From: Streptomyces lydicus
GTDB lineage: Bacteria > Actinomycetota > Actinomycetes > Streptomycetales > Streptomycetaceae
Length of the DNA stretch: 23,615 nt
Direction of reading: 5' to 3'
Assembly: GCF_000717345.1 (NCBI RefSeq)
Contig: NZ_JNZA01000066.1
Location: 1 to 23,615 of the forward strand
Shown: piece after piece, positions 3,710 through 5,848 of the stretch
How the letters are laid out: the number at the start of each line of letters is the position of its first letter
How positions within the stretch are numbered: position 1 is the stretch's first letter
Notes under the pieces: model-generated
What the model was told of the DNA's origin: nothing
Database searches by the model: none
The model's input: the letters and a program-made list of their open reading frames with translations, nothing else
Made by a program: the position numbers and the translations under genes

Positions 3710-5296
3710 TCACTCCCACTCGATGGTGCCCGGCGGCTTGCTGGTCACGTCGAGGACGACGCGGTTGACGTCCGCGACCTCGTTCGTGATGCGGGTCGAG
3801 ATGCGGGCCAGCACCTCGTACGGCATACGGGTCCAGTCGGCCGTCATCGCGTCCTCGGAGGAGACCGGGCGCAGCACGATCGGGTGGCCGTACGTGCGGC
3901 CGTCGCCCTGGACGCCGACGGAGCGGACATCGGCGAGCAGGACCACCGGGCACTGCCAGATCTCACGGTCCAGGCCGGCCGCGGTCAGCTCCTCGCGGGC
4001 GATGGCGTCCGCCTCGCGCAGCAGGTCCAGGCGGTCCCTGGTGACCTCGCCGACGATGCGGATGCCGAGGCCGGGGCCGGGGAACGGCTGGCGGTGGACG
4101 ATCTCGTCGGGCAGGCCGAGCTCGGTGCCGACCATCCGCACCTCGTCCTTGAACAGCTGGCGCAGCGGCTCGACGAGCTCGAACTCGATGTCGTCGGGGA
4201 GCCCACCGACGTTGTGGTGCGACTTGATGTTGGCGGTGCCGGTGCCGCCGCCGGACTCGACGATGTCCGGGTAGAGCGTGCCCTGGACCAGGAAGGCGAC
4301 TTCCTCGCCCTCGGCGCCGGCCTCGGCGACCAGCTCGGCCTGGGCCTGCTCGAAGACGCGGATGAACTCGCGGCCGATGATCTTCCGCTTCTGCTCGGGG
4401 TCGCTGACCCCGGCGAGCGCGTTCAGGAAGCGCTCCTCGGCCTCGACGACCTTCAGCTGGACGCCGGTGGCGGCCACGAAGTCCTTCTCGACCTGCTCCG
4501 ACTCGCCCTTGCGCATCAGGCCGTGGTCGACGTAGACGCAGGTCAGCTGGTCGCCGATGGCCTTCTGGACGAGGGCGGCGGCGACCGCGGAGTCCACGCC
4601 GCCGGACAGCCCGCAGATCGCACGCTTGGTGCCGACCTGCGCGCGGATCGCGGCGACCTGCTCCTCGACCACGCTGTGGGTGGTCCAGTTCGGCTCGATG
4701 CCCGCACCGCGGTACAGGAAGTGCTCCAGGACCTGCTGGCCGTGCGTGGAGTGCATGACCTCGGGGTGGTACTGGACGCCGTAGAGCTTCTTCTCGTCGT
4801 TCTCGAAGGCGGCGACCGGGACCACGTCCGTGGACGCGGTGACGGTGAAGCCCTCGGGGGCGGCGGAGCAGGCGTCGCCGTGCGACATCCACACCGACTG
4901 CTCGGCGGGGGTGCCCTCGAAGAGGGTGGAGCCGGGGCGGGAGACGGCGAGCGGGGTACGGCCGTACTCACGGGCGCCGGTGTTGTCGACGGTGCCACCG
5001 AGAGTGGTGGCCATGAGCTGGAAGCCGTAGCACATGCCGAAGACCGGGACGCCGGCTTCGAACAGGGCGCGGTCCAGGCGGGGGGCGCCCTCCGCGTAGA
5101 CCGACGAGGGGCCGCCGGAGAGGATGATCGCCTTGGGGTTCTTGGCGAGCATCTCGGCCACCGGCATGGTGGACGGCACGATCTCGCTGTAGACCCGGGC
5201 CTCACGGACTCGGCGGGCGATGAGCTGGGCGTACTGTGCGCCGAAGTCGACTACGAGGACGACGTCCGGGGCGGCGGCAGGGGGCGCTGATGGCAC
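3710..5296 (-). CDS. guaA: GMP synthase (glutamine-hydrolysing)
   Basis: The 528-residue enzyme converts XMP to GMP with ATP and glutamine, the last step of guanylate synthesis. The N-terminal class I glutamine amidotransferase domain (about 11-200) has the nucleophile Cys89 in GMCYGFQ and His177-Pro-Glu179. The ATP-pyrophosphatase domain begins with the PP-loop SGGVDS (231-236), and the C-terminal dimerisation domain ends in the conserved [10 protein letters not shown] chose the GTG at 5296 because GGAAGG lies nine bases upstream and the alignment with known Streptomyces GuaA begins there. The frame is open for 52 more codons upstream, but these are not family-like and overlap the divergent leader. 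Confidence 0.97.
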
Positions 5297-5328
5297 TTCG
5301 GCGGCCTTCCGGCGGGTGTGGAGCGGGG

Positions 5329-5358
5329 TTGGACTTTCGATTCTAACGGGCTCATACT
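5329..5358 (+). promoter_or_regulatory. putative promoter of the chorismate mutase leader transcript
   Basis: TTGGAC (5329-5334) and CATACT (5353-5358) are separated by 18 bases. A start point about seven bases after the -10 falls on or next to the A of the ATG at 5366, so the leader peptide would be translated from a leaderless transcript. This fits with the lack of a convincing ribosome binding site before that ATG. On the opposite strand, TAGAAT (5345 to 5340) is a good -10 for guaA, so the two divergent promoters overlap. Confidence 0.55.
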
Positions 5359-5365
5359 GTGACTC

Positions 5366-5437
5366 ATGTTCCAGCAGCTGACCTTCGCCTTTACCTATGG
5401 CACCGGCCCATCCGGTTGCCATGGTTGTGCTGCTTGA
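5366..5437 (+). CDS. Phe/Tyr-rich leader peptide upstream of chorismate mutase
   Basis: A 23-codon ORF begins [11 protein letters not shown] and ends in TGA at 5435-5437. Four of its first eleven residues are Phe or Tyr, including the codons TTT (5390-5392) and TAT (5396-5398), both rare in Streptomyces. The remaining codons (CCA, CAT, TGT, GCT) are also atypical. The Phe/Tyr cluster at 5384-5398 is followed at the very next base by a hairpin, the layout of trp- and phe-type leader peptides. The downstream gene is chorismate mutase, the branch-point enzyme to Phe and Tyr. The function is inferred from this arrangement, and the peptide itself is not a family I know. Confidence 0.6.
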
Positions 5438-5489
5438 TCGACTGACGAGCAAACTTCCCAGGCGCCCCGGGCCGACAAGGTCCGGGGCG
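5399..5489 (+). promoter_or_regulatory. putative ribosome-mediated attenuator
   Basis: Hairpin 1:2 is GGCACCGG (5399-5406) with CCGGTTGCC (5412-5420), one bulged base, starting directly after the TAT control codon. Hairpin 3:4 is CGCCCCGG (5463-5470) with CCGGGGCG (5482-5489), a perfect 8-bp stem and an 11-base loop, 59 bases before the chorismate mutase ATG. Segment 2 could instead pair with GGCGCCCCGG (5461-5470) through GCC/GGC and CCGG/CCGG, which would break the 3:4 terminator. This is the classic antiterminator logic. The 3:4 stem is not followed by a clear T tract. Confidence 0.5.
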
Positions 5490-5548
5490 TCTGTGCATGC
5501 CGAGGACCGTCAGCGGCTCCGGGGCCCGCTCACCCCAGGAGACACCCC

Positions 5549-5848
5549 ATGAGCACCGAGACCACCACCGCCCCCACTCCCGACACCGGAGCGCGCACCC
5601 CGGAGGCGGCCGGGATCATCTCCGACGCACGGCGCCGGATCGACGATCTCGACGGCCGGATCATCGGCCTCGTGCAGGAACGGATGGCCGTCTCGGCCGT
5701 CATCCAGCGCGAGCGGATCACCTCCGGCGGGCGGCGGGTGAATCTCACCCGCGAGATGGAGATCCTCGCCCACTACCGCGACCAGCTCGGCAGGCCGGGC
5801 ACCGCGCTGGCGATGACCCTGCTGGAGCTGTCGCGGGGCCAGATCTGA
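5549..5848 (+). CDS. chorismate mutase, AroQ class
   Basis: The 99-residue, all-helical, monofunctional AroQ chorismate mutase converts chorismate to prephenate for phenylalanine and tyrosine. Helix 1 has the hallmark ARRRIDDLDGRIIGLVQER (about 27-45). It is followed by the Arg-rich RVNLTREMEILAHYRDQLG (63-81), and the protein ends in LLELSRGQI. The size is normal for this actinobacterial type. AGGAGA (5537-5542) is six bases before the ATG. It diverges from guaA and is preceded by the aromatic leader described here. No partner gene follows, so it appears monocistronic. Confidence 0.9.
   Translation: MSTETTTAPTPDTGARTPEAAGIISDARRRIDDLDGRIIGLVQERMAVSAVIQRERITSGGRRVNLTREMEILAHYRDQLGRPGTALAMTLLELSRGQI

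Follow-up and report, generated by a model that had tools for sequence, protein, structure and literature searches.

A candidate Phe/Tyr leader-peptide attenuator ahead of the chorismate mutase gene in Streptomyces

Introduction

In Streptomyces lydicus a short open reading frame (ORF) with Phe and Tyr codons lies between the divergent guaA gene and a gene for chorismate mutase (CM). The question raised by this locus is whether the ORF is a leader peptide that adjusts CM expression to the supply of phenylalanine and tyrosine, as a sequence-only reading of the DNA had proposed. The window analysed here is the whole stretch of 23,615 nt (contig NZ_JNZA01000066.1, positions 1–23,615).

Attenuation is an established mode of control in this genus. 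A trp attenuator is described in Streptomyces, as the sequence-only reading had noted, and so is one of leuS (PMC1262725). In the sections available of a reannotation of S. lividans, eight leaders are listed (trpL1/trpL2, ilvL, leuL1/leuL2, alaL, metL and thrL), none of them aromatic besides the two trpL (PMC8079986). These Streptomyces leaders resemble the present locus in having a short ORF and hairpins before amino-acid genes, and differ in that none serves Phe/Tyr or CM. The accessible text of a 2005 survey reported no conserved RNA structures ahead of the phenylalanine and tyrosine operons of Actinobacteria (PMC1262725).

Results

The locus

The features of the locus are collected in Table 1. 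The guaA gene probably starts at GTG 5296, from which its frame is open. The product of the gene downstream of the ORF has 99 aa, and a ribosome site, AGGAGA, was read from the sequence at 5537–5542. Profile matches agreed with its original designation as a CM: the protein scored 115.1 bits to NCBIfam NF005894 (cut-off 73), 53.1 bits to TIGR01808 (cut-off 52.15) and 26.7 bits to Pfam CM_2, slightly below the cut-off of 27. A second, weak CM-like frame occurs in the same genome (G000:C15:192276-192452; 27.4 bits to TIGR01808, below the cut-off).

Table 1. Positions of the features of the guaA–CM region in the window
Feature	Position	Strand	Basis or detail
Divergent guaA (GMP synthase)	3710..5296	(-)	NCBIfam NF000848, 775 bits
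Promoter-like site	5329..5358	(+)	TTGGAC 5329-5334, 18-base spacer, CATACT 5353-5358; read from sequence
Leader ORF, 23 codons	5366..5437	(+)	ORF reading
Control codons TTC-GCC-TTT-ACC-TAT (Phe7, Phe9, Tyr11)	5384..5398	(+)	conserved core
Hairpin 1:2, antiterminator competitor	5395..5424	(+)	5395-5406 with 5412-5415 and 5417-5424
Antiterminator 2:3	5412..5470	(+)	folding, swap tests
Antiterminator pairs	5412-5415/5467-5470, 5417-5420/5461-5464, 5423-5424/5457-5458, 5427-5428/5453-5454		
Antiterminator tip helix	5431-5436 with 5446-5451	(+)	surrounds leader stop codon
Hairpin 3:4, terminator-like stem	5459..5493	(+)	5459-5473 with 5479-5493
AroQ-type CM, monofunctional, putative regulated gene	5549..5848	(+)	profile matches

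The ORF has Phe at codons 2, 7 and 9 and Tyr at codon 11, exactly as first described. In five genes of the window, TTT accounts for none of 43 Phe codons and TAT for three of 40 Tyr codons, so that both codons are rare, which had also been claimed. The two hairpins proposed earlier are real but their extents required revision. Hairpin 1:2 had been placed after the ORF, at 5399–5420; it lies inside the ORF and begins at the last base of codon 10. Hairpin 3:4 is strong and precedes the CM gene, as predicted, and runs beyond the originally assigned 5463–5489 on both sides.

Distribution of the leader

A DNA query (5340–5552, E ≤ 0.001) matched the leader in 148 of 150 genus genomes, including the window's own, a few of the matches being short. 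In the two genomes without a match, the CM gene is cut short to 53 residues (G008) or absent (G103). When loci were selected by the CM protein alone, the leader was present at all 80 (the best 80 of 363 relatives), and in the combined sets, in which the window is counted twice, it was found with its core at 111 of 111 loci. Two of the combined loci carry titles of other genera (L073 and L093). In the first, titled Microtetraspora glauca NRRL B-3735, the CM (76% identity) and the leader, MRTHSTFLFTYGNRPTGCHGRAA, are of Streptomyces type, and the title of the record may be wrong.

Of 150 family genomes, 102 had a full-length match to a covariance model of the leader (R1) at an E value no worse than about 1e-9. 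CM lay downstream of all 40 family leaders that were fetched and of all 22 further leaders at the level of the order. The other 48 family genomes had an absent or poor leader, and 24 of them were searched with the CM protein. No CM gene was detected in 20 of these 24; three (G153, G168 and G178) have CM with a diverged leader, and one (G182) has only a distant CM relative. The genomes lacking CM include genus g14 and part of g7. Elsewhere in the order, CM was present in 14 of 15 genomes, each time with a leader ahead of it (14/14; for example MLANRRFFYGYGPGSLAIVGC, MRQAAFRFSYGFRNRSGSPVAVWP and VLRSRRFGYGFPAGPVGQAVAR). Eleven of the 14 were detected by an aromatic-ORF scan, which also fired on 2 of 28 antisense controls and on 63 of 1400 shuffled ones; the RNA model recovered the remaining L233, L234 and L236, which have RRFSYGH. 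Phe and Tyr codons persist at the core in relatives outside the genus, the exceptions being L168 (FTQG) and L221 (FSHG), in which Tyr is lost, and L245, in which Tyr is replaced by Phe with the codon TTT.

At the level of the class, leaders such as FFFYG, RFFYGYRP and YFYYG precede CM in families f33, f37 and f39. In the DNA upstream of 20 class-level CM genes, R1 detected a leader in six (E 1e-14 to 0.002) and the aromatic-ORF scan in four; neither method found one at the other ten. In family f19 the leader, MQRNFWRFYGYRP..., is followed by DAHP synthase instead of CM. The f19 leaders have Phe, Trp and Tyr codons ahead of this gene, as in MQRNFWRFYGYRPISPVACKALR (loci L247-L249, L252, L254, L255, L296-L298 and L300-L315). 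Of 394 genomes, 33 contain a gene-blind pattern for a related core, TTYTAYGGSTAYCGGCC, and 2 contain the reversed pattern; the pattern is absent from the genome of the window itself. Thirty matches were fetched: nine stand ahead of CM and 19 ahead of DAHP synthase, 128–207 bases from the aligned start of the protein, while the remaining two fall within long open frames, and neither gene was found there.

No second copy of the leader was accepted in the window's own genome. There, R1 had a single strong match of 147 bits; of 14 weak ones (E up to 10), 11 are confined to the terminator or the 1:2 part and three are full-length with at most 19.7 bits. One of the three (L264, G000:C3:157245-157350) overlaps a tRNA-like sequence that runs directly into a GC-rich hairpin similar to the 3:4 stem, and hairpins of that kind explain most of the partial matches. 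Weak full-length or partial matches in other genomes (L250, L251, L256-L263 and L265) resemble gene ends that bear a GC-rich hairpin and were likewise discarded. The model also returns reverse-strand matches to the palindromic terminator.

Alternative folds and their conservation

The leader region folds better than expected (z −3.7 against dinucleotide shuffles, with 1 of 200 shuffles equally good). Segment 2 and the left arm of 3:4 can pair, as had been proposed, and do so as a long imperfect hairpin of −24.8 kcal/mol that spans 5412–5470; its tip helix contains part of the leader stop codon (5435–5437). In 153 of 157 folded leaders, segment 2 forms at least seven pairs with the left arm of 3:4. 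The folding set excludes one leader (VLRSRRFGYGFPAGPVGQAVAR, L229), which the motif pattern did not fit.

Selection on these helices was assessed by exchanging arms between 36 diverged leaders of the order in 20,000 swaps, a procedure that takes the leaders as exchangeable and so does not yield a phylogenetic probability. One leader with a wrong terminator call (L163) and one doubtful case (L226) were kept out. Native arms paired far better than swapped ones for hairpin 1:2 (z −8.2), hairpin 3:4 (z −14.4), the tip helix (z −6.1) and the whole antiterminator (z −6.9), each with 0 of 20,000 swaps as good. The antiterminator stem without its tip, left-arm flanks included, gave z −6.3 (0/20,000) in a set of 48 leaders, made up of the 36 and 12 from further families, four of which precede DAHP synthase. 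The corresponding values were z −6.2 (0/20,000) for the 36 leaders alone and z −3.6 (1/20,000) after thinning to 14 dissimilar leaders. The innermost 2:3 pairs taken alone showed no significant covariation among the 36 leaders (z −1.5, 1282/20,000) because the CCGG involved is palindromic and common to most lineages, and these strict pairs were dropped as proof of the antiterminator. Control pairings gave z −0.9 (1:4), 0.5 (1:3) and 1.1 (2:4) with 36 leaders. With 48 leaders, two controls gave z −0.8 and 1.3, and that of segment 1 with the right arm, like the helices under test, lay below chance (z −2.8, 47/20,000), which is unexplained.

Within the genus, an alignment built without reference to structure had 96.3% and 97.4% of cells paired. 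Changes on both sides were seen in 3 of 32 pairs, and in 1 of 16 antiterminator pairs; column covariation is thin at this level because the region is nearly invariant. The compensating changes to which the sequence-only reading had looked for support are thus found between lineages, with little of the kind inside the genus. On the comparison of diverged leaders, 1:2, 3:4 and the antiterminator are kept by compensating changes.

The terminator-like stem

Hairpin 3:4 has 15 pairs, is GC-rich and has a folding energy of −33.5 kcal/mol. In this strain the stem is not followed by a U run, and a terminator scan found no terminator. Among 157 leaders, the 12 bases after the stem contain TTT in 82, only TT in 41 and not even TT in 34. 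These observations would fit a variant in which the same sensor acts through another output, namely Rho-dependent termination, RNA decay or translation of the CM mRNA, rather than through intrinsic termination. Against this stand the length and GC content of the stem, its status as the best paired helix of the genus alignment (98.8% of cells), its score in the swap test (z −14.4) and the TTT found in more than half of the leaders; furthermore, 3:4 ends 55 bases before the CM gene, away from the ribosome site. Another output is accordingly considered improbable, and hairpin 3:4 is taken as the putative site of termination.

Control codons and the leader peptide

The core reads TTT-ACC-TAT-GGC in 95 of 96 distinct leaders and TTT-ATC-TAT-GGC in one, so that codons 9 and 11 specify Phe and Tyr in all 96. 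Conservation of the ORF and its aromatic codons in relatives, on which the original proposal depended, was therefore borne out. Two residues ahead of the core Phe, 89 of these leaders have Phe, five have Tyr and two have Ser; the Phe at codon 2 is variable and not conserved across leaders. TTT is invariant yet unpaired in hairpin 1:2, which points to selection on the codon itself. TAT lies within 1:2, and its invariance could also reflect pairing.

The remainder of the peptide is handled differently. A one-base shift in eight of the listed loci (L013, L018, L043, L049, L057, L060, L072 and L076) changes the tail to PVRLPWSCCLS[NH] with the RNA letters unchanged, which indicates that the frame matters as far as the core and not beyond. 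In L013, L018, L043 and their relatives, a conserved ACTGAC after the usual stop gives a stop codon in the shifted frame, so that the frame-shifted leaders still end at the antiterminator tip. In two other loci (L039 and L042) the 3' arm of 1:2 is swapped for a different sequence. In L039 the new arm pairs again with segment 1 (−24.3 kcal/mol), and the alternative hairpin toward the left arm of 3:4 folds at −33.0 kcal/mol with only four pairs into the arm.

These loci bear on the possibility that the ORF encodes a small functional protein and that the hairpins are ordinary. The peptide is highly conserved within the genus, as such a protein would be, but its C-terminal half is shifted or replaced in several lineages (the eight frame-shifted loci together with L046 and L066; L039 and L042) while RNA letters or pairing are kept, its N-terminus is variable, and distant leaders share little besides the aromatic core; a functional protein is very unlikely on these grounds. 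No family in Rfam 15 reached its gathering score across the whole window, and the sole weak match of 5200–5650 was to a Burkholderia sRNA (19.2 bits, cut-off 112). Control of CM by a ligand- or tRNA-binding structured RNA (riboswitch or T-box), with the ORF incidental, would fit the several conserved helices with compensating change, but is hardly credible: no Rfam family reaches its cut-off, the Phe/Tyr codons read in frame are the most invariant stretch, and the ORF and the fold overlap, with the antiterminator tip enclosing the stop codon.

Transcription start

The CATACT of the promoter-like site ends 7 bases ahead of the leader ATG. CATACT or CATAAT is found 6–7 bases ahead of the leader start in 109 of the 110 loci with enough upstream sequence (the window being counted twice), and this placement suggests that the transcript is leaderless. 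A promoter consensus scan listed no promoter. The position of the promoter-like site speaks for transcription starting at the ATG or close by, and the leader is probably translated from a leaderless transcript. The E. coli pheL leader, which is unrelated in sequence, has its own ribosome site. Several other Streptomyces leaders are reported as leaderless transcripts in the available text of the S. lividans study (PMC8079986). Polycysteine leaderless ORFs of mycobacteria (Canestrari et al. 2020, a title cited in PMC13236596) are alike as leaderless, amino-acid-sensing short ORFs and differ in sensing cysteine and in preceding other genes.

Discussion

Proposed mechanism

The locus combines end-product codons in a short ORF, a hairpin 1:2 at the control codons and a 2:3 pairing exclusive of the other folds. 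The leader is interpreted as a ribosome-mediated transcription attenuator of the trp/phe type that would make CM expression depend on how far tRNA-Phe and tRNA-Tyr are charged, a reading to which we assign a probability of roughly 0.86. The control codons, the alternative structures and the link to the CM gene are conserved; from these we infer the start site, the stalling, the termination and the direction of the response. Transcription would begin at or next to the leader ATG, and the leader would be translated at once. With Phe and Tyr plentiful, the ribosome would reach the stop codon in the tip helix and mask the end of segment 2 and the tip, leaving hairpin 3:4 to form and RNA polymerase to halt ahead of the CM gene. 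If Phe or Tyr were short, the ribosome would stall at TTT (5390–5392) or TAT (5396–5398) and mask segment 1; segment 2 could then pair with the left arm of 3:4 (5412–5470), the terminator would be blocked and CM transcribed. A leader that was not translated would form 1:2, with termination as the predicted outcome.

The geometry fits this scheme with ribosome footprints of the usual size. A ribosome at TAT or TTT would cover most of 5395–5406 and free segment 2, and one at the stop codon (5435–5437) would favour 5459–5493. Codon 7 is too far upstream for full masking of segment 1, in line with its weaker conservation. Termination is the weakest part of the scheme, given the missing U run in this strain. 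Judged from sequence comparison, the first reading is right in substance, and its comparative support is unusually good.

Relation to known systems

The nearest described case is the AroR leader ahead of aroF in Corynebacterium glutamicum, reportedly the subject of Neshat et al. 2014 (doi 10.1016/j.jbiotec.2014.05.033). In the parts available of the papers concerned, aroR encodes a leader peptide with Phe-Tyr-Phe ahead of aroF (PMC4046766, PMC11802643; the AroR/aroF leader is also covered by PMC7356990), and aroF transcription rises under Phe limitation via ribosome stalling while Tyr supply is without effect (PMC11802643). The likeness lies in an actinobacterial leader with Phe and Tyr codons and an aromatic-pathway gene downstream. 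AroR has Phe-Tyr-Phe and precedes DAHP synthase, whereas the present leader has Phe-x-Phe-Thr-Tyr and precedes a monofunctional CM, so that by the gene it precedes it differs from the AroR type in this comparison of published descriptions. In E. coli, according to the portion of the text available, the Phe leader peptide of pheL/pheA answers to charged tRNA-Phe and the controlled gene has CM activity (PMC11802643). A Phe-containing leader peptide and CM activity are thus shared, and the differences are that the E. coli enzyme is a bifunctional chorismate mutase-prephenate dehydratase and that only Phe is sensed. The earlier statement that no aromatic leader is described for monofunctional CM held for the open-licence PubMed Central literature as far as its texts were available, in which none was found; it needs the qualification that the phylum already has AroR, ahead of DAHP synthase.

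The leaders of other families suggest a wider grouping. We rate at even odds the idea that a class-wide actinobacterial family of aromatic attenuators exists ahead of either CM or DAHP synthase, with AroR as one known branch. Its mark would be a core of Phe (or Phe-Thr/Ser) followed by Tyr-Gly, with the rare-type codons TTT and TAT, to which the DAHP synthase version would add a Trp codon (NFWRFYGYRP). In the accessible part of one study, complex formation with DAHP synthase raises the efficiency of the CM of Mycobacterium tuberculosis more than 100-fold (PMC4281200), and this complex makes the distribution of the leader over the two genes suggestive.

Significance

In the open-licence literature searched, as far as its texts were available, no account of control at the RNA level was encountered for the Phe/Tyr branch point of Streptomyces. 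The leader is a candidate switch at this point. It precedes the gene whose product directs chorismate into Phe and Tyr synthesis, and is present in nearly every genus genome searched. Phe and Tyr feed many natural products, and the leader offers a possible handle for engineering, as producer strains might make more precursor once the putative terminator is removed. The DAHP synthase leaders might help to reconstruct how a single type of attenuator was acquired by two partner enzymes. If the class-wide family is real, the same RNA switch would have been retained on either partner of the branch-point complex and would be a main sensor of aromatic supply in the class.
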